A stretch of DNA of 64,000 bases from Labilibaculum antarcticum. Its GTDB lineage: Bacteria > Bacteroidota > Bacteroidia > Bacteroidales > Marinifilaceae. The notes under the pieces are model-generated. The model was not told the origin of the DNA. It made no database searches and saw nothing but the letters and a program-made list of their open reading frames with translations. The position numbers and the translations under genes are program-made. Shown in pieces: positions 9,973-18,625 of this stretch (the stretch's first letter is position 1; each line of letters starts with the position of its first letter). Location of the stretch: contig NZ_AP018042.1 in the NCBI RefSeq assembly GCF_002356295.1, positions 1,086,361 through 1,150,360 on the forward strand, read 5' to 3'.

Positions 9973-10227
9973 TTAATCGTCAAACTCTTCGTCGTAAAGA
10001 TCTTCCTGATTTTCTAACTCATCATTAAAGAAGGTTTCAGCCTCATCCATCAAATCTTCGATCAGATTTTGATCTTCAGGCGTTTTTTCTAACCAATGAA
10101 TAGTTTGATTTGAGTTGAAATCCTCAACATCACATTCTACAATACACTTTGGAGAACGTGTGTGGATGATAAAAAGAGTATCAGGTAACTCTTGTGAATT
10201 GTCTGCTAATAAAAACTTTGGGAGCAT
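9973..10227 (-). CDS. Small acidic protein of unknown function
   Basis: 84 aa, very acidic, with a C-terminal tail dominated by Asp and Glu (FFNDELENQEDLYDEEFDD). There is no signal peptide or membrane segment. I do not recognise a family. The N-terminal half (FIIHTRSPKCIVECDVEDF) looks like a short beta-rich fold. It sits with another small unknown gene on the same strand. It is probably real because of its codon use and clean boundaries. Confidence 0.6.
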   Translation of the reverse strand: MLPKFLLADNSQELPDTLFIIHTRSPKCIVECDVEDFNSNQTIHWLEKTPEDQNLIEDLMDEAETFFNDELENQEDLYDEEFDD

Positions 10228-10351
10228 AACTTTAATTTTAAATTACAGTGCAAATATAGGAAGAGATTGAGTTCCAAGCAACAAAATAGACTTAACTATT
10301 TACGATTACTATTTTTCCACTTTTTAAGCAAGCTTACTATCAATCAGAATC

Positions 10352-10588
10352 CTAATCCTTAGTTGCTTCATCATCATTCCCAATCACTGGGAAATCAACA
10401 TCCACATCTACTTTAATTAGATAATTACACTCTTCTGTTATCAAATCGAAAGCGTAAAAACTCCTTCCAACTCCTAAATTGAATAATTTAACCATCTCTT
10501 CGTACCCAAGAGGGAATGTTTTTCGAACCAGATTCAATAGCTCTGGTTCCATTTTATTAAAACTAACAATTCTGTTTTTCTTTGCCAT
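10352..10588 (-). CDS. Small conserved-looking hypothetical protein
   Basis: 78 aa, soluble, starting MAKKNRIVSF. The middle (LVRKTFPLGYEEMVKLFNLG) and the beta-rich SFYAFDLITEECNYLIKVDV look like a compact alpha/beta fold, but I cannot name a family. It lies upstream of the acidic protein gene on the same strand, 124 bp away. Confidence 0.6.
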   Translation of the reverse strand: MAKKNRIVSFNKMEPELLNLVRKTFPLGYEEMVKLFNLGVGRSFYAFDLITEECNYLIKVDVDVDFPVIGNDDEATKD

Positions 10589-10910
10589 AATCGAATAATT
10601 TGATACGTCAAGTTTAAAACAAAACTGTGCTTTGCTTATTAAGCTATCCTTAAAATTACAGTAAGTTTTCCTTTGAATCTTTAAAATATATTCTTGTCAA
10701 AAAACAACATTAAAATAACACTCGCCCAAAACAAAAACACAATACACTCATAAAAAAACACTTACGCTCATTTATCAATCCCCCTCGCAAACGTTTATTC
10801 TAAATAAGAAAAAGACACGCGAGTCTTTTTTATTCTCTATTTGTTGGATTAGTCAAAATATCTGCCTAAACTTGTCATCGATAAACAGATCATTATATCC
10901 TTATTTAGCA
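10589..10910. other. Long upstream region of the sulfite-reductase operon
   Basis: AT-rich spacer between the divergent small gene and the first leader ORF. It contains one terminator-like hairpin at 10808-10831, listed separately. The left 220 bp have no ATG on the plus strand, so no leader ORF precedes that hairpin. The operon promoter must lie somewhere between here and 10910, but no clean TAnnTTTG box is visible. Confidence 0.5.
10808..10834 (+). terminator. Terminator-like hairpin upstream of the tandem attenuators
   Basis: Stem AAAAAGAC / GTCTTTTT with loop ACGCGA, followed by T-rich TTTATTC. The 3' flank CTTTTTTATTC is nearly the same as the flanks of the two attenuator terminators downstream. 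No gene on the plus strand precedes it. It may be a leaderless relic of the same module or the end of a short transcript. Confidence 0.55.
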
Positions 10911-11003
10911 ATGAGCAAATTTCTTCAAAATAACAAAATGTCTTTGTGTATGTGTACAACATGTTGTATGTGTATGGACAGTTTTGTTATGCAAAAAGGA
11001 TGA
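10911..11003 (+). CDS. Cys/Met-rich leader peptide 1 (attenuator ORF)
   Basis: 30 codons from ATG 10911 to TGA 11001-11003; a second in-frame ATG at 10938 would give 21 codons. The core, from 10938, reads MSLCMCTTCCMCMDSFVM, with five Cys codons (10947-10973) interleaved with Met codons. This density is far above chance and matches the product of the operon downstream, which makes sulfide for cysteine. A terminator hairpin starts 38 nt after the stop. The segment under the stop codon can pair with that terminator's 5' arm. Together these are the hallmarks of a ribosome-mediated attenuation leader. Translation itself is inferred. Confidence 0.8.
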   Translation: MSKFLQNNKMSLCMCTTCCMCMDSFVMQKG

Positions 11004-11053
11004 GCTTAAATTGATGAATTAGATATTAGAATATTCTCAAGAGCCTTTTTGCA
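10990..11053 (+). promoter_or_regulatory. Predicted antiterminator pairing of attenuator 1
   Basis: TGCAAAAAGG at 10990-10999, ending just before the leader stop codon, is a perfect 10-nt complement of CCTTTTTGCA at 11044-11053. The second segment is also most of the 5' arm of the terminator, so the two structures are mutually exclusive. A ribosome finishing the leader would mask 10990-10999 and favour termination. A ribosome stalled at the Cys codons around 10947-10973 would leave the segment free and favour read-through. Confidence 0.7.
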
Positions 11054-11075
11054 ACAGCAAAAAGGCTTTTTTTTT
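11042..11075 (+). terminator. Attenuator terminator 1
   Basis: A perfect 11-bp stem, AGCCTTTTTGC / GCAAAAAGGCT, with loop AACA, followed by a run of T residues. It lies between leader ORF 1 and leader ORF 2, ahead of all structural genes of the operon. Confidence 0.92.
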
Positions 11076-11137
11076 ATTCGACAAAATGATCTCAACGACA
11101 GACTTAATCATATCAAGAATATTTTTTTCGCACAAGG

Positions 11138-11221
11138 ATGAAAATAAATTCAAATCATACAAAGAACAGAATCAATGTAGCAATATGTTGTTGTATGTGT
11201 ATGTTATGGAATCCACCCTAG
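11138..11221 (+). CDS. Cys/Met-rich leader peptide 2 (attenuator ORF)
   Basis: 27 codons from ATG 11138-11140 (preceded by ACAAGG) to TAG 11219-11221. After an Asn-rich start it reads NVAICCCMCMLWNPP, with Cys codons at 11186, 11189, 11192 and 11198. It shares the 15-nt stretch TGTTGTATGTGTATG with leader 1, in the same reading phase (CCMCM), so the two look duplicated. The terminator begins 39 nt after its stop, almost the same distance as in leader 1. A second frame, open from 11086 and continuous with the DUF2061 gene, overlaps it. Confidence 0.78.
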   Translation: MKINSNHTKNRINVAICCCMCMLWNPP

Positions 11222-11270
11222 CAGAATTCGTTATGTACCTAAATGAACATTACATATCGAGTCTTTCTGC
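11221..11270 (+). promoter_or_regulatory. Predicted antiterminator pairing of attenuator 2
   Basis: GCAGAA at 11221-11226 starts at the last base of the leader 2 stop codon. It is complementary to TTCTGC at 11265-11270, the 5' arm of terminator 2. A further CG/CG pair (11229-11230 with 11258-11259) could extend it across an internal loop. The pairing is shorter and weaker than in attenuator 1, but it is placed equivalently relative to the stop codon. Confidence 0.5.
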
Positions 11271-11290
11271 AACGCAGAAGGACTTTTTTT
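11261..11290 (+). terminator. Attenuator terminator 2
   Basis: A 10-bp stem, GTCTTTCTGC / GCAGAAGGAC (one G-U pair), with loop AAC and a T7 tract. It lies 20 bp upstream of the DUF2061 start codon. It would end transcription before the first structural gene. Confidence 0.88.
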
Positions 11291-11310
11291 ATTCTTGTAA
11301 GTCGATTAAA

Positions 11311-11541
11311 ATGAAGGAAAAAACATACCGAAGTGTACTAAAAACCATTTCGTGGAGAACGATTGGAACAATTGATACCATCTTAATCTCCTATTTAGTG
11401 ATTGGAGATATGAAATGGGCCATGTCGATTGGTGGAGTTGAGTTGTTTACAAAAATGGGCCTCTATTTTATTCATGAACGAACATGGAATAAGATCGAAT
11501 TAGGAAGAGAGAAAAAACATCCCATTGATTATCACATTTAA
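11311..11541 (+). CDS. DUF2061 small membrane protein
   Basis: 76 aa from ATG 11311-11313. The family begins with a short basic segment before SWRTIGTIDT, which supports this start. An in-frame ATG at 11086 exists, but reading from it would run through leader ORF 2 and a terminator stem. Two hydrophobic helices are visible (about 16-33 and 38-55). The function of DUF2061 is unknown, and its members are often found near sulfate-assimilation genes. Here it is the first structural gene of the operon, 11 bp ahead of the siroheme enzyme gene. Confidence 0.85.
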   Translation: MKEKTYRSVLKTISWRTIGTIDTILISYLVIGDMKWAMSIGGVELFTKMGLYFIHERTWNKIELGREKKHPIDYHI

Positions 11542-11552
11542 AAAGAGCAACC

Positions 11553-12035
11553 ATGTCGAAACAGAAAAAACAATTTTTACCGATAGCCTTAGATATCACC
11601 AATAAAAAAATACTAATTATTGGAGGCGATGAAGATGCTTATAAAAAGCTTAAAATATTACAACGGAGCACAAATTTAATCGAGGTAATCGCTCCAAAAA
11701 TCATTAACTGGATTAAAAATGCAGGTGTGATTTATCACGAGAAACAATACAGCAAGGAAGTGCTAAAAGATTATTTCCTGATATACAGCTGTGTTGAAGA
11801 CCCTGCTTTTGTAAGACAATTAATAAGAGATGCTAAAGAAGCCGGCGTATTACTAAATGTTCACGATCAACCAGATTTTTGTGAATTTGTTTCTCCGGCT
11901 ATTTACAAACAATCGAACATTAGCGTTGCTGTAAGTTCAAATGGTGAAGATGTTTACGAATCGATTCGTGTTCGGAATCAACTGAAAGATTACTTCGAAA
12001 ATTACCAGCTTCAAAAACAACTAATTGCTAACTAA
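11553..12035 (+). CDS. Precorrin-2 dehydrogenase / sirohydrochlorin ferrochelatase (Met8/CysG-N type)
   Basis: 160 aa. The Rossmann start (ITNKKILIIGGDEDAYKKLK, about 15-34) and the downstream LNVHDQPDFCEFVSPAIYKQ segment match the N-terminal domain of siroheme synthase, which oxidises precorrin-2 with NAD+ and inserts iron. It is a single-domain protein; the methyltransferase half of CysG is encoded separately as cobA 4 kb downstream. Its product, siroheme, is the cofactor of CysI in the same operon. The nucleotide-binding loop is GGDEDA rather than the common GGGxVA. Confidence 0.88.
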   Translation: MSKQKKQFLPIALDITNKKILIIGGDEDAYKKLKILQRSTNLIEVIAPKIINWIKNAGVIYHEKQYSKEVLKDYFLIYSCVEDPAFVRQLIRDAKEAGVLLNVHDQPDFCEFVSPAIYKQSNISVAVSSNGEDVYESIRVRNQLKDYFENYQLQKQLIAN

Positions 12036-12068: not shown

Positions 12069-13844
12069 ATGGGAAAAGAATTTAAAATCAATCAAGAACA
12101 ATTATCTCAGCTAAATCAGCTGATTCAAAATTTATCTGCCGAGCAATTGGTTTGGGTAAATGGATACCTATCAGGGATTATCAATGGAAAACCGAATGCT
12201 GTTGATGTTCCGGTAATTTCGAGTCAAAAATCTTCTGAAAGCATCACTATTTTATTTGGCACACATAGCGGACATAGCAAGGAGATAGCCATGGATCTTC
12301 ACGATAAAATTTTGGCACTGGGCTTCGATGCTAAGATACAAGGCCTTGACTTTTACCAGAAAAATGATTTGAAAAAGGAAAAATACCTTTTCCTGATCGT
12401 AAGTACACATGGTGAAGGTGAAGCTCCGATTCAGGCAGAAGAATTATACGAGTATGTGCATGGCACAAGAGCTCCAAAACTGCCAGACACCAAATATGCT
12501 GTACTTGCTTTGGGTGACAAAACCTACAAGAATTATTGCCAGACAGGCATTGATTTCGACCAGACTTTCAGCAAATTAGGAGCTAAAGCGATTATCCCTG
12601 TTCAAACCAGTGATGTTGCCTACGAAGAAGTCGCTGAACAATGGATCGAAAAAGTGATTGGTGAATTGAAGAACTTAGTACCCGAACTTACTGCTTCAAC
12701 CCTATCTGCCAGCACTGCGATTACAAAGAAGAAATTCAATCGATCAAACCCATACTATGCTGAAGTATTGGAAAAAGTGAGAATTACCACCTCCGATTCT
12801 GAAAAGGAAATCTACCATGTTGAAATCTCATTGGAAGATTCGGGCATAGAATATAAAGCGGGCGACAGCATTGGTATTCTTCCCAACAATCCTATCGATT
12901 TGGTAGACTTGCTCATTGACAAGTTGGAAGACGATCCGGAACGAATTGTTACCCTTGGAGAGAAAGAAATCAGTTTATTTCGGGCTTTACAAAACAAGCT
13001 GGAGTTAACCGTTTTGAACCGCGAAGTTCTTGAAAAGTACAAGGCCATAACTCAAAATAAGGATCTTGAATTGCTGCTGAATAATGAAGATGAATTGGAA
13101 GCATATCTTTACGGAGCTGATGCCTATGACTTATTGGAAGATTACCCGGGAGAAATTACCAGCGATCAATTTATATCTATTCTTCGGGTTTTATATGCAC
13201 GCCTCTACTCGATCTCCTCGGGTCCGAGTTCAAACCCCGAAGAAGTTCACATTACCATTGCCTCGGTTCGATACAATCGCAAAAAACGTGACAGAAACGG
13301 AGCTTGTTCCTCTTACATCACCGATGAAATTAATGCAGGCGACCATTTGCCCATTTACATCGATAAAAATGAATCTTTCCGTTTACCGGATGACGAAAGC
13401 AAACCACTAATAATGGTGGGTGCAGGAACCGGAGTGGCTCCTTACCGAAGCTTTTTGCAAGAACGGGAACAAAATAGCGCAAAAGGGAAAAACTGGTTGT
13501 TCTTTGGAAATCAACGACTCAAAAAAGACTTTTTATATCAGCTTGAATGGCAAAGATTCCTCAAGAAAGGAACTCTGCAGAAATTAGATGTTGCCTTTTC
13601 AAGAGATCAGGAAGAAAAAACCTACGTGCAGCATCGACTGAAGGAAAATGGGAAAGAAGTATTTCAATGGCTCGAAAACGGTGCTCATTTTTACATCTGC
13701 GGAGACAAAAAACACATGGCCAAAGATGTGCAAACAAGCTTGCTGGAAATCATTCAGAACGAAGGTGGAATAACTCCTGAAAAAGCGGAGGAATATCTAA
13801 AGAATCTGAAAAGAGAAAAGCGGTTCCTGCTTGATGTCTACTAA
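12069..13844 (+). CDS. cysJ: Sulfite reductase flavoprotein subunit (CysJ)
   Basis: 591 aa, NADPH-dependent diflavin reductase that passes electrons to CysI. A short N-terminal extension (1-57) is followed by a flavodoxin FMN domain (about 58-200, with ILFGTHSGHSKEIA). The FAD domain contains RLYSISSGPSS and a GACSSYI segment. The NADPH-binding domain has GAGTGVAPYRSF at about 451-462 and HFYICGDKKHMAKDV, and the family C-terminus LLDVY is present. It lies 33 bp downstream of the siroheme gene in one operon. Confidence 0.96.
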   Translation: MGKEFKINQEQLSQLNQLIQNLSAEQLVWVNGYLSGIINGKPNAVDVPVISSQKSSESITILFGTHSGHSKEIAMDLHDKILALGFDAKIQGLDFYQKNDLKKEKYLFLIVSTHGEGEAPIQAEELYEYVHGTRAPKLPDTKYAVLALGDKTYKNYCQTGIDFDQTFSKLGAKAIIPVQTSDVAYEEVAEQWIEKVIGELKNLVPELTASTLSASTAITKKKFNRSNPYYAEVLEKVRITTSDSEKEIYHVEISLEDSGIEYKAGDSIGILPNNPIDLVDLLIDKLEDDPERIVTLGEKEISLFRALQNKLELTVLNREVLEKYKAITQNKDLELLLNNEDELEAYLYGADAYDLLEDYPGEITSDQFISILRVLYARLYSISSGPSSNPEEVHITIASVRYNRKKRDRNGACSSYITDEINAGDHLPIYIDKNESFRLPDDESKPLIMVGAGTGVAPYRSFLQEREQNSAKGKNWLFFGNQRLKKDFLYQLEWQRFLKKGTLQKLDVAFSRDQEEKTYVQHRLKENGKEVFQWLENGAHFYICGDKKHMAKDVQTSLLEIIQNEGGITPEKAEEYLKNLKREKRFLLDVY

Positions 13845-13859
13845 AAAATCATCCAAACG

Positions 13860-13888
13860 CTGACAGGTCTTACGACGCTGTCAGGTTT
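13860..13888 (+). terminator. Intercistronic hairpin between cysJ and cysI
   Basis: A 7-bp stem CTGACAG / CTGTCAG with an 11-nt loop, followed by GTTTT. The short T tract suggests a weak terminator or a processing or stability element that could lower cysI relative to cysJ. Confidence 0.5.
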
Positions 13889-13903
13889 TAAACAAAACCA
13901 ACT

Positions 13904-15607
13904 ATGTCAGATAATATCAACTGGGCAGAATTGTCCGAAGTCGAAAAAATAAAAAGCGAGAGCAACTATTTGCGCGGAACATTGGAGGCCAGTCTTGCTG
14001 ACCCAATTACAGGAGCCATTGCCCTCGATGATCGTCAGGTCTCTAAGTTTCATGGCATTTACCAACAATTCGATCGGGATAATGAACGGGAAAGAAGAAA
14101 AACCAAACTGGAACCCGATTATTCCTTTTTGATTCGGGTGCGAGTGCCAGGTGGAGTTGTGAACGCGAAGCAATGGCTGCAAATCGATCAAATTTCAGAT
14201 GAATATGCCAATGGTACCATCAAATTAACCACCAAACAGGCATTCCAGTTTCACGGTGTGTTGAAGGGAGACCTGAAGCCAAGTATTCAATCCATAAACA
14301 AGGCATTGCTCGATACCATTGCCGCTTGTGGTGATGTAAACAGAAATGTGATGGCCAGTCCTCATCCGTATGCATCGGAAGTTTTCGATCAGGTTCAGGA
14401 ATTAGCGGGTAAAGTGAGCGATCATTTAACGCCAAGAACTCCGGCATATTACGAAATCTGGCTCGACCAAAAGAAGGTGGCGGCAGGAAGTGCCGGCGAA
14501 GTAGAACCTTTGTACGGACCGGTTTATTTGCCTCGAAAGTTCAAAATTGGATTTACCACTCCCCCTTTTAACGATACGGATATTTTCACTCAGGATTTGG
14601 GATTTATTGCCATTGAAAACAATGGTGTGCTGGAAGGATTCAATATTGCGGTAGGCGGTGGAATGGGAACCACTTTTGGCGATGCTGAAACTTATCCCCG
14701 TTTAGGCAATGTTCTGGGTTTTATCTCGGTTGAGAACACTGTAGATGTTGCGGAAAAAGTGGTGCTCTTGCAAAAGGAGCTGGGGAATCGAAAAGTGAGA
14801 AAGAATGCCCGTTTAAAATACACCATCGACAGAATTGGAGTTGATGCATTTAAGGAACTCCTGAATGAGAAGCTTGGTTATTCATTAGAGCCGGAAAGAA
14901 GCTATGCATTAGTACGCAACGGCGATAAATTCGGATGGCAAAAAGCCAAAGATGGCCTTTGGTATCTGGGCTTATTCATTGAAGGCGGACGAGTAAAAGA
15001 TGTTGATCAGGTAAAAATAAAATCGGCCCTGCAGGAAATTGCAAGCCTAAACATTTCTGATTTTCGCCTGACAGGAAATCAAAACCTGATTCTGGGGAAG
15101 ATTGAGGAAGAGAACAAGGCTAAAATCAATCAGATTCTGAAAAAGCACCACCTTTTACCTCAGGCTATTTCGGGAATAAGAGCCAACTCGATTGCCTGTG
15201 TTGCGCTAAACACATGTAGTTTGGCTTTTGCCGAAGCAGAAAGATACCTTCCCTCATTAATCGATAAAATTGAAGAAGGCTTGCAAGAGTTTGGTTTGTT
15301 TAAAGATGAAATTGTAATTAGAATGACTGGGTGTGCCAATGGATGTGGAAGACCTTACGTAGCAGAAATCGCATTCATCGGAAAAGCTCCGGGAAGATAT
15401 AATTTCTATCTGGGTGGTGATTTTAAAGGAACACGTTTGAATAACCTCTATCGCGAAAATGTGGACGAGCAAGAGATTCTGAAAGATCTTCGACCCATTT
15501 TGAAAGATTATTCTGAAAACAGAACCAAAGGAGAAGAATTTGGCGATTTCGTGATCCGTAAACAATACGTTGCTGAAATAGTGAATCCTAAGGATTTTAA
15601 GCATTAA
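13904..15607 (+). CDS. cysI: Sulfite reductase hemoprotein subunit (CysI)
   Basis: 567 aa. It catalyses the six-electron reduction of sulfite to sulfide at a siroheme-[4Fe-4S] centre. The four cluster cysteines lie at 432, 438, 477 and 481 (CVALNTC and CANGC), with the same spacing as E. coli CysI. The basic substrate and siroheme-binding segments (for example DVNRNVMASP and GGGMGTTFGD) are intact. It follows cysJ by 59 bp across a small hairpin. A repeat-rich 364-bp gap separates it from cobA. Confidence 0.97.
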   Translation: MSDNINWAELSEVEKIKSESNYLRGTLEASLADPITGAIALDDRQVSKFHGIYQQFDRDNERERRKTKLEPDYSFLIRVRVPGGVVNAKQWLQIDQISDEYANGTIKLTTKQAFQFHGVLKGDLKPSIQSINKALLDTIAACGDVNRNVMASPHPYASEVFDQVQELAGKVSDHLTPRTPAYYEIWLDQKKVAAGSAGEVEPLYGPVYLPRKFKIGFTTPPFNDTDIFTQDLGFIAIENNGVLEGFNIAVGGGMGTTFGDAETYPRLGNVLGFISVENTVDVAEKVVLLQKELGNRKVRKNARLKYTIDRIGVDAFKELLNEKLGYSLEPERSYALVRNGDKFGWQKAKDGLWYLGLFIEGGRVKDVDQVKIKSALQEIASLNISDFRLTGNQNLILGKIEEENKAKINQILKKHHLLPQAISGIRANSIACVALNTCSLAFAEAERYLPSLIDKIEEGLQEFGLFKDEIVIRMTGCANGCGRPYVAEIAFIGKAPGRYNFYLGGDFKGTRLNNLYRENVDEQEILKDLRPILKDYSENRTKGEEFGDFVIRKQYVAEIVNPKDFKH

Positions 15608-15924: not shown

Positions 15925-15959
15925 CCTTTGTGCTGTGCTTCGAGTCCTTTGTGGTTAAA
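15925..15959. repeat. CTTTGTG-type intergenic repeat
   Basis: Contains CCTTTGTGCTGTG and CCTTTGTGGTTAAA, a low-complexity repeat family often seen between Bacteroidota genes. A related copy in the other orientation (CCACAGAG...CACAGAGG) lies near 17790. It overlaps the 5' flank of cobA. Confidence 0.5.
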
Positions 15960-15971
15960 AAATATAAGTAT

Positions 15972-16790
15972 ATGAAAAACGGAAAAATATGGATTGTTGG
16001 TGCCGGACCTGGTGCTGCCGATCTGCTCACAATAAAAGCCTTACGAAGCATTCAGAATGCGGATGTAATTTTATACGATGCCTTAATTACCGATGAAGTG
16101 CGTGCTCTGTTTCCCAACAAAGCAATTCTTATTGATGTAGGAAAACGTTCGGGCGATGGTAAAAATCCGGTAACCAGACAAGAATATATTCACGACCAAA
16201 TGCTGATGTATTACTTACTAGGCAGTGAGGTAGTGAGATTGAAATCGGGCGACCCGATGGTTTATGGCAGAGGTGTTGAGGAGATTCGTTTCTTGTTGGA
16301 AACCGGTTTGGAATTCGAATTAATCCCCGGAATTAGTGCTGCTATGGCTGCTTCCAACGAGTTTTGGATTCCGCTTACCGAACGAGGCAAATCATCAGGA
16401 ATACATTTTCATTCGGCCGTAAAAGTGGGTGGTAAAAAAAGTGCTCTAAACGAAATTATTCGCGAAATTGAGAACGACGATACCGTTGTAATCTATATGG
16501 GGCTGGAGCATTTAAAGGGGATGGCTGACGAACTTCATCGAAGATTGTCTAAAGAAACCAACATCAATGTAATCTCGAAGGTGAGCTATAAAGACAGCGA
16601 TGTGATAAGCGGGAACACAAAGTTTTTCAGTAAAATAAAGAACCACGAACTGCCGGCTTCACCAGCGGTAATTGTATTGGGAAACCATACCCAAATTCCG
16701 AGAAAATCCGAATCAAGTGAAAAAGGAAAAGTGGCCATCTCAACAAGAATTAAAAGTTTTGCAAGACAGGCATTTTTGAACCTGTTTTAA
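15972..16790 (+). CDS. cobA: Uroporphyrinogen-III C-methyltransferase (CobA/SUMT)
   Basis: 272 aa from ATG 15972-15974. An ATG 14 codons upstream lies inside the repeat and would precede the conserved MKNGKIWIVGAGPGAADLL start. It methylates uroporphyrinogen III at C2 and C7 with SAM to give precorrin-2, the substrate of the dehydrogenase at the head of this operon. Motifs are VGAGPGAADLLTIKAL (about 7-22) and VRLKSGDPMVYGRG (about 86-99). It ends just before a strong terminator that closes the operon. Confidence 0.94.
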   Translation: MKNGKIWIVGAGPGAADLLTIKALRSIQNADVILYDALITDEVRALFPNKAILIDVGKRSGDGKNPVTRQEYIHDQMLMYYLLGSEVVRLKSGDPMVYGRGVEEIRFLLETGLEFELIPGISAAMAASNEFWIPLTERGKSSGIHFHSAVKVGGKKSALNEIIREIENDDTVVIYMGLEHLKGMADELHRRLSKETNINVISKVSYKDSDVISGNTKFFSKIKNHELPASPAVIVLGNHTQIPRKSESSEKGKVAISTRIKSFARQAFLNLF

Positions 16791-18218: not shown

Positions 18219-18625
18219 AAAGCCTCCCCCATAACGGGATGCTCTGCTTTCATTGATTTCAGACCTTCCCCTGTTCGGGAAAGCTGTCTTTTTTTGATTT
18301 CAAGCTTTCCCCTCTTCGGGAAGGGTGTCTTTTTTTGATTTCAGCCCTTCCCCTCTTCGGGAAGGGTGTCTTTTTTTGATTTCAGCCCTTCCCCTGTTCG
18401 GGAAGGGTGTCTTTTTTTGATTTCAGACCTTCCCCTGTTCGGGAAGGGTCTCTTTTTCTGATTTCAAACTTTCCCCTGTTCGGGAAGGGTCTCTTTTTCT
18501 GATTTCAAACTTTCCCCTGTTCGGGAAGGGTCTCTTTTTTTGATTTCAAGCTTTCCCCAACACGGGAAAGCCCTTTTTTTTCTGGCTGAAGTTTTACCCA
18601 ATACGGGAAAGGTCATTTATTTTCG
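18219..18625. repeat. Tandem array of ten 41-bp hairpin units
   Basis: CGGG words occur at 18235, 18276, 18317, 18358, 18399, 18440, 18481, 18522, 18563 and 18604, exactly 41 bp apart. A typical unit has an inverted repeat (CCTTCCCC-TGTT-CGGGAAGG) followed on the plus strand by a T-rich tract and GATTTCA. Each unit therefore resembles an intrinsic terminator. Inner units are nearly identical and outer ones are degenerate. The 41-bp period is not a multiple of three, and no ORF spans the array. It lies between tex and the zinc-ribbon gene. Confidence 0.9.

Follow-up and report, generated by a model that had tools for sequence, protein, structure and literature searches.

Ribosome-mediated attenuation of the trp/his type combines a short ORF rich in codons for the product of the pathway, an intrinsic terminator, and an antiterminator arm that the ribosome either covers or leaves exposed. 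A mycobacterial poly-Cys leader is said, going by the title of Canestrari 2020, to be Cys-responsive. In the cys operons of Actinobacteria, including mycobacteria, short ORFs with Cys codons lie ahead of sulfur-assimilation genes, and the available part of that description reports no conserved terminator-like hairpins and suggests Rho (PMC1262725). The element uORFC-8-2 of Rhodobacterales is a uORF located before cysS that contains Cys codons and is followed by an intrinsic terminator, as given in the accessible portion of the article (PMC8632094). In Flavobacterium psychrophilum, leader-peptide attenuation of amino-acid operons was proposed, with conserved 5' elements before pheA and hisG (PMC9723704). 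Leader-peptide-like sORFs are mentioned in the B. thetaiotaomicron map, whose available portion names no Cys operon (PMC7366714), and the word part 'Bacteroid' is absent from the available text of Naville and Gautheret 2010 (PMC2965389). Our literature search, mostly at the level of titles and with subscription papers mostly outside it, yielded no description of Cys or Cys/Met leaders from Bacteroidota.

The locus studied here lies in the window, that is, the whole 64,000-nucleotide stretch analysed from Labilibaculum antarcticum, a member of a marine genus. As in trp/his-type systems, a leader with codons for the products of the pathway, an intrinsic terminator and a mutually exclusive antiterminator are all present by sequence. 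The differences are that Cys and Met codons occur in one leader, that two complete units stand in series, that the host belongs to Bacteroidota, and that folding predicts no trp-style protective hairpin. Compared with the mycobacterial poly-Cys leaders, as far as the available description goes, each unit here has an intrinsic terminator and a predicted antiterminator, Met codons are interspersed, and units are sometimes doubled. The logic proposed for the window's leaders is the same as that of uORFC-8-2, which differs, in the part of its description available, by its two Cys codons (tandem, positions 14-15), its target cysS and its phylum, whereas the present leaders precede DUF2061/cysJI and have another layout. 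The F. psychrophilum proposal shares the phylum and leader-peptide attenuation, but its text, as far as accessible, names no Cys or sulfur operon. Leader attenuation itself is known; what seems to be new, within the literature searched, is the Cys/Met unit, each with its terminator and predicted antiterminator, single or doubled, in Bacteroidia. From these features, it is very probable that two ribosome-mediated transcription attenuators, arranged in series behind one promoter, control the sulfite-reductase/siroheme operon. A switch of this sort, recurrent, acting on RNA and with a codon code that can be read, would lead to testable predictions in many species. It would account for short ORFs that lie unannotated before cys and met genes, and its tandem form would offer a naturally occurring example of two similar gates placed one after the other.

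Table 1. Features of the leader region and operon in the window, and leaders or Cys-rich ORFs at other loci
Feature	Position or locus	Strand	Remarks
Possible promoter	10840-10874	+	TTTG (10840-10843) and TAAACTTG (10867-10874); by eye, weak
Leader ORF 1	10911-11003	+	30 codons, 5 Cys and 5 internal Met; MSKFLQNNKMSLCMCTTCCMCMDSFVMQKG, then stop
Predicted antiterminator arm 1	10990-10999	+	TGCAAAAAGG, leader 1 end; 10-nt complement of 11044-11053
Intrinsic terminator 1	11039-11070	+	14 pairs, loop 4, then T run
Leader ORF 2	11138-11221	+	27 codons, 4 Cys (CCCMCM), C-terminus mostly LWxPP; MKINSNHTKNRINVAICCCMCMLWNPP, then stop
Predicted antiterminator arm 2	11221-11235	+	GCAGAA (11221-11226) with TTCTGC (11265-11270); outer pairs to 11253-11260
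Intrinsic terminator 2	11259-11285	+	12 pairs, loop 3, then T run
DUF2061 small membrane protein, first operon gene	11311-11541	+	PF09834 E 1.3e-21
Met8-like siroheme synthase N-terminal domain	11553-12035	+	TIGR01470 above cut-off
cysJ, sulfite reductase flavoprotein	12069-13844	+	TIGR01931 above cut-off
cysI, sulfite reductase hemoprotein	13904-15607	+	TIGR02041 above cut-off
Uroporphyrinogen-III C-methyltransferase (cobA/cysG C-terminal domain)	15930-16790	+	TIGR01469 above cut-off
Leader before MetY	L168, L174, L181		TIGR01326 above cut-off
Leader before OsmC and an O-succinylhomoserine sulfhydrylase-like gene	L156		
Leader before OsmC	L212		
Leader before cysE-cysK	L133		
Leader before a serine-acetyltransferase-like gene	L200		
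Leader before a MetN-like gene	L191		
Leader before two PAPS-reductase-domain genes	L275		
Leader before aldo/keto reductase, then sulfite reductase	L155, L267, L270		
Leader before a cysE-like/cysK/cobA run leading to sulfite reductase	L321 472-541		NMCCMM
Poly-Cys ORF ahead of DUF2061	L071 1261-1360	+	0-based start; GCCSCCCCS
Poly-Cys ORF ahead of DUF2061	L078 1289-1391	-	0-based start; LCCCMCSFCCCSSR
Poly-Cys ORF ahead of DUF2061	L082 1283-1394	+	0-based start; LCCCMCSPFNCCCSRK

The original prediction described two short ORFs rich in Cys and Met, and their coordinates and composition agree with our results. Among the 766 short ATG-started ORFs scanned on both strands of the window, only ORF1 and ORF2 combine a 10-residue stretch containing 4 or more Cys with a terminator no farther than 130 nt away, a rule by which some true leaders are missed. 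The same rule applied to the 6327 short ORFs of loci L001-L045 gave 29 matches, all of which are equivalent leaders, and none elsewhere. Met codons are nearly as common as Cys codons in the leaders, judged by the residues of 42 distinct leaders (Cys 14.0%, Met 12.5%). Each ORF had also been predicted to be followed by a terminator 38-39 nt past its stop; the terminators were recovered but the distance was not, since the hairpins start 35 nt (unit 1) and 37 nt (unit 2) past the leader stops. Two terminators were found in 10000-12000 for 0.8 expected from shuffles. The segments running from past the stop through the T run fold with a z of -4.1 for unit 1 (11006-11075) and -3.7 for unit 2 (11222-11295), each beating all 200 shuffles, and the excess is smaller when the upstream coding part is included (z -1.9 and -1.7, respectively). 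No Rfam match at gathering score was obtained in the whole window; in 10700-11400, the 13 matches up to E 5 are all well below gathering scores, the best of them by bit score being PyrR (E 0.089).

The announced gene order downstream of the leaders, DUF2061-Met8-cysJ-cysI-cobA, was confirmed by matches to protein family models (Table 1), and the operon is thus predicted to make sulfide. Position 11311 is the likely start of DUF2061, since a longer frame from 11086 overlaps ORF2, and the true start of the uroporphyrinogen-III C-methyltransferase may be 15972. CysJ and CysI (12069-15607) are poor in Met (0.51% and 0.53%, versus 2.34% in other long ORFs of the window), as for sulfur-thrifty sulfur enzymes, yet some other ORFs of the window are equally Met-poor. 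Farther along, 3' of a DUF2807 gene, the window holds at 18253-18614 a 41-nt tandem repeat of 7.2 copies (TRF), with more diverged copies after it; each repeat contains a terminator-like hairpin, CTTCCCC..GGGAAGGG, and then a T run.

Upstream of the leaders, TAAACTTG is a one-mismatch version of TAnnTTTG, which we take to be the -7 promoter element of Bacteroidota, and the window has no exact copy of this motif. In the tandem clade to which the window belongs, the one-mismatch form is found 5' of the first leader, and no exact motif was found 5' of unit 2. The exact motif is located 15-61 nt 5' of the leader ATG in 18 of the 18 single-leader loci examined. Across the class, it lies at most 60 nt 5' of unit 1 in all 14 tandem pairs (shuffles average 0.96 and never exceed 6), and in none of the 14 does it occur between the two units. 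A motif before the first ORF with none between the units suggests that one transcript probably passes both gates. A palindrome, CGCAAACGTTT, is present upstream of the possible promoter at about 10788-10800, and its A.CG.TT positions are kept in 10 aligned loci of the tandem clade; it presumably resembles a LacI-type operator and is possibly a second layer of control.

An element absent from the original prediction is an antiterminator: in each unit, the leader end is predicted to pair with the 5' arm of the terminator. In unit 1, TGCAAAAAGG is the exact complement of CCTTTTTGCA (11044-11053), the 5' arm of terminator 1 (p=0.003 against shuffles). In unit 2, the arm spans the ORF2 stop codon and its core helix is short (5-8 nt); the duplex test gave p=0.004, the aligned units show a 6-nt helix here, and the contiguous-helix test alone gave p=0.06. 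In most Labilibaculum/Marinifilum loci, ORF2 ends (11204-11218 in the window) with LW(N/Y/F)PP-stop, the exceptions being LRYPP and LWNQP, and this Pro-Pro-stop could be a slow termination context that holds the ribosome over the antiterminator arm.

To follow these pairings in relatives, we built an alignment from 34 of the 42 distinct units. For the terminator, 96.6% of the cells are paired, 6 of the 12 pairs show changes on both sides, and double-change cells number 35 versus 10.6 in shuffles; three of five covariation measures exceed all 500 shuffles, and two others (pairs with double change, further pair types) are not above them. A contiguous antiterminator helix of 5-10 nt, located 10-17 nt past the Cys block, is found in 34 of the 34 units. 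When leader ends were permuted among terminators, the total score of the cognate combinations, 656.5, was reached by none of 5000 permutations (mean 515, maximum 576), related units not being independent in this comparison. The clearest covariation comes from L076, which belongs to a different family within the order and has both partners changed (ATCAAAGGG with CCTTTTGAT). Against shuffled spacers, the antiterminator is significant (p<=0.05) in 33 of the 42 distinct DUF2061-operon leaders, L076 included, for 2.1 expected, and in 25 of 47 class-wide leaders for 2.4 expected; in the other 22 of these 47, the contiguous-helix test gave no significant antiterminator. The 47 units are the 48 leaders minus the second unit of L154, which has no perfect hairpin. 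An earlier version of the test gave 33 of 46 units at p<=0.05, and unit 1 of Marinifilum failed in it owing to a late Cys codon that clipped the search.

The position of the arm was then related to the codons. Class-wide (29 units, p<=0.1), the median distance from the first base of the last Cys codon to the antiterminator is 14 nt, and the antiterminator lies inside the leader ORF or just past its stop. In units with p<=0.1, the standard deviation of the distance from the arm to the last Cys codon is 5.0 nt class-wide and 4.4 nt in the DUF2061 clade, a spread narrowed by a search that begins 9 nt downstream of the last core Cys codon, and that of the distance to the stop codon is 16.9 and 8.0 nt, respectively. 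An arm that tracks the last Cys codon is expected if the relevant ribosome is held on the Cys codons. With a ribosome footprint of 31 nt imposed in folding, the arm is paired in the unfinished transcript whichever Cys codon the ribosome occupies, and for a ribosome at the leader stop it is covered by the footprint position itself. The finished terminator is more stable in all states, even when the ribosome occupies a Cys codon, which means that the switch would have to work kinetically. Folding the partial transcript without a ribosome also gave a paired arm; unlike in trp, an untranslated leader may thus read through.

The proposed mechanism is as follows. When charged tRNA-Cys is plentiful, and perhaps tRNA-Met as well, the ribosome would reach the leader end and cover the antiterminator arm, upon which the terminator would form and transcription would stop. 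When charged tRNA is scarce, the ribosome would halt on the Cys/Met block and leave the arm just ahead of it free to capture the terminator's 5' arm while the 3' arm is still untranscribed, allowing the polymerase to continue. The polymerase would have to pass both gates, which might give a sharper response. A promoter, translation of the leaders, stalling, termination, a Cys signal and Met as a second signal would all take part in this scheme, which we infer from the ORFs, hairpins, antiterminators, covariation, spacing, conservation and operon context.

Poor conservation of the Cys codons and hairpins in related genomes would have spoken against such a scheme, and both were found to be kept. 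A met8-like gene comes next in 30 of the 45 DUF2061 loci examined; leader-terminator units, counted over all 45 by a looser rule than in the ORF scan, are present in 30 of these 30 loci and in 0 of the 15 others. Two units are found in 13 DUF2061-met8 loci (Labilibaculum/Marinifilum and kin), the counterpart of ORF1 being present in 13 relatives, and one unit in 17 (Draconibacterium, Mariniphaga, Maribellus, relatives, and one MAG labelled Chlorobiota). DUF2061 occurs in 15 of the 56 genomes of the window's family, with at least one unit in 14 of the 15, and in 54 of 295 genomes of the wider order. At 29 wider-order DUF2061 loci (L070-L098), leader and terminator were found together in one, L076, and 25 have neither. 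The sequence-level predictions of the attenuator interpretation that could be tested here therefore held, namely conserved Cys codons and hairpins, a cognate antiterminator, and sulfide-making genes downstream.

The hairpins could also be unconditional, as stabilisers of mRNA ends or as ends of upstream transcripts, with the small peptides acting in trans. One leader peptide, peTrpL, does act in trans, as described in the part of the article available (PMC7298713), and the three remaining wider-order loci (L071, L078, L082) have a Cys-rich ORF just upstream, about 100 nt ahead of DUF2061 (Table 1), without a simple terminator; there, Rho-dependent or translational control is perhaps at work. 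We nevertheless hold unconditional hairpins to be highly improbable: outside the Cys/Met block the peptides differ between families while the cognate antiterminator pairing is kept, and the nearest ORF upstream of the leaders (10352-10588) runs in the opposite direction, leaving terminator 1 no obvious upstream transcript to end.

Attenuation units were also sought in more distant genomes. A covariance model of the units (R1), run over 396 Bacteroidia genomes, led to leaders in other families. In 393 genomes of the order, it gave a strong match in one genome besides the window's own; the weak matches from the own-genome and order searches are mostly plain terminators without a Cys ORF, and of the 51 loci it provided (L101-L151), the window's leaders, L123 and L133 alone remained. 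Real leaders do occur among the class-wide matches scoring 43-45 bits (L174, L175, L176, L180). Two simpler patterns were set aside: a phylum-wide DNA pattern gave no match in 395 genomes, being too narrow to match even the window itself, and a CMCM codon pattern gave seven matches in the own genome, the two leaders and five that are likely due to chance.

As an independent survey, about 5 kb upstream of sulfite reductase (less at contig ends) was analyzed for 62 loci other than the window's own, PF01077 being found in 63 of 227 genomes. By a strict rule, 26 of the 62 loci have at least one unit, six of them have two, and 36 have none; a relaxed rule gave more candidates. No unit was found at 13 nirB loci from the same PF01077 search, and the antisense strands of all 75 loci gave one. 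The 26 unit-bearing loci fall in 15 of 26 families other than the window's own. The matches at L275 and L321 lie about 3.5-4.6 kb ahead of sulfite reductase, before other sulfur genes. Class-wide, 14 pairs of Cys/Met ORFs in series were found, and in 11, from seven families, both terminators meet the rule; in L154, L316 (a possible eighth family) and L325 the second hairpin is imperfect or was not found by the rule. Doubling is thus recurrent, with predicted complete tandems in seven other families whose units differ in order and type from the Labilibaculum tandem. Leaders also precede other genes (Table 1), and a direct survey shows that they are a minority before MetY (3 of 30 loci) and cysE (2 of 28). 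In the own genome, no such leader was found at cysH, cysDNC, metY or cysE; among the sulfur genes checked, the sulfite-reductase operon is the only one to have it.

We then analyzed which amino acids the leaders may read. The search rule demands Cys, and its presence in all leaders is therefore no evidence. Met accounts for 93 of the 240 non-Cys residues within two positions of a Cys (38.8%) in 40 of the 48 class-wide leaders, and for 55 of 144 (38.2%) in 18 clade representatives, while farther from Cys in the same peptides it falls to 4.6% and 4.9%, respectively. By controlled gene, Met represents 38% of the neighbours in sulfite-reductase leaders (both in 32 class-wide leaders and in the 18 of the clade), 38% (35/93) in MetY/MetZ leaders and 7% (2/27) in four cysE leaders, the last differing from all sulfite-reductase leaders with p=0.0007 if related sequences are counted as independent. 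Since the first gene after the L321 leader is cysE-like and its run leads on to sulfite reductase, both versions are given: adding L321 to the cysE group yields 5/33 (p=0.008). Thirteen leaders of sulfite-reductase loci outside this grouping have 38 Met among 75 neighbours. Sulfide feeds both Cys and Met and cysE feeds Cys only, so this pattern fits a codon code, and a codon content that follows the branch of the pathway is suggestive, not proven.

Two readings of these counts were weighed. In one, the leader would be a dual-codon sensor that reads both Cys-tRNA and Met-tRNA, with codons following the branch controlled (both kinds where sulfite reductase or MetY is the target, almost only Cys where it is cysE), in tandem in places and widespread in Bacteroidia; from the codon content, we give this an even chance. 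In the other, which is possible if rather doubtful, the attenuator is the same and senses Cys alone, Met being incidental, for example as a by-product of TGTATG repeats or as a stalling aid. Two of the 40 class-wide leaders indeed have no Met within two residues of Cys, some leaders amount to an almost pure run of Cys (for example NACCCMCCCCTD in L263), and the L321 leader has Met beside Cys (NMCCMM) directly before a cysE-like gene. Met starvation also affects initiation, which complicates a Met readout. Against Cys-only sensing stand the concentration of Met next to Cys in both leader sets and the Met-poor cysE leaders, with or without L321; moreover, MMCC and CCMM blocks cannot arise from TGTATG repeats.

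What is sensed might not be tRNA charging at all, if the nascent Cys/Met peptide acted as a chemical sensor (of copper, thiol, sulfide or redox state) that arrests the ribosome. Cys-rich copper-sensing leader peptides exist, CMC and CCCC motifs could bind soft metals, and the conserved Pro-Pro-stop of ORF2 is a slow context; the Pro-Pro end, however, was seen solely in ORF2 of the Labilibaculum/Marinifilum clade, and leaders vary freely in how many Cys they contain and how these are spaced. The location of the arm agrees with Cys codons occupying the ribosomal A site, Cys is written as TGT and TGC 104 to 75 times class-wide, as for codons, and the identified downstream genes mostly belong to sulfur assimilation, the aldo/keto reductase of L155, L267 and L270 being the odd one. 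A peptide sensor therefore seems highly improbable to us, and tRNA charging remains the preferred signal.

Finally, model R1 also picked another leader in the own genome, L105 (G000:C1:4138090-4138195, - strand), where an Asn-rich peptide, MNQKFNFNNLFNNLMNNYSLKSGSL, and a terminator precede asnA (TIGR00669 above cut-off), with a matching antiterminator end recognised by eye, an arrangement like that of the Cys/Met units. As judged from this locus, the host bacterium thus appears to have a leader attenuator for asparagine too.
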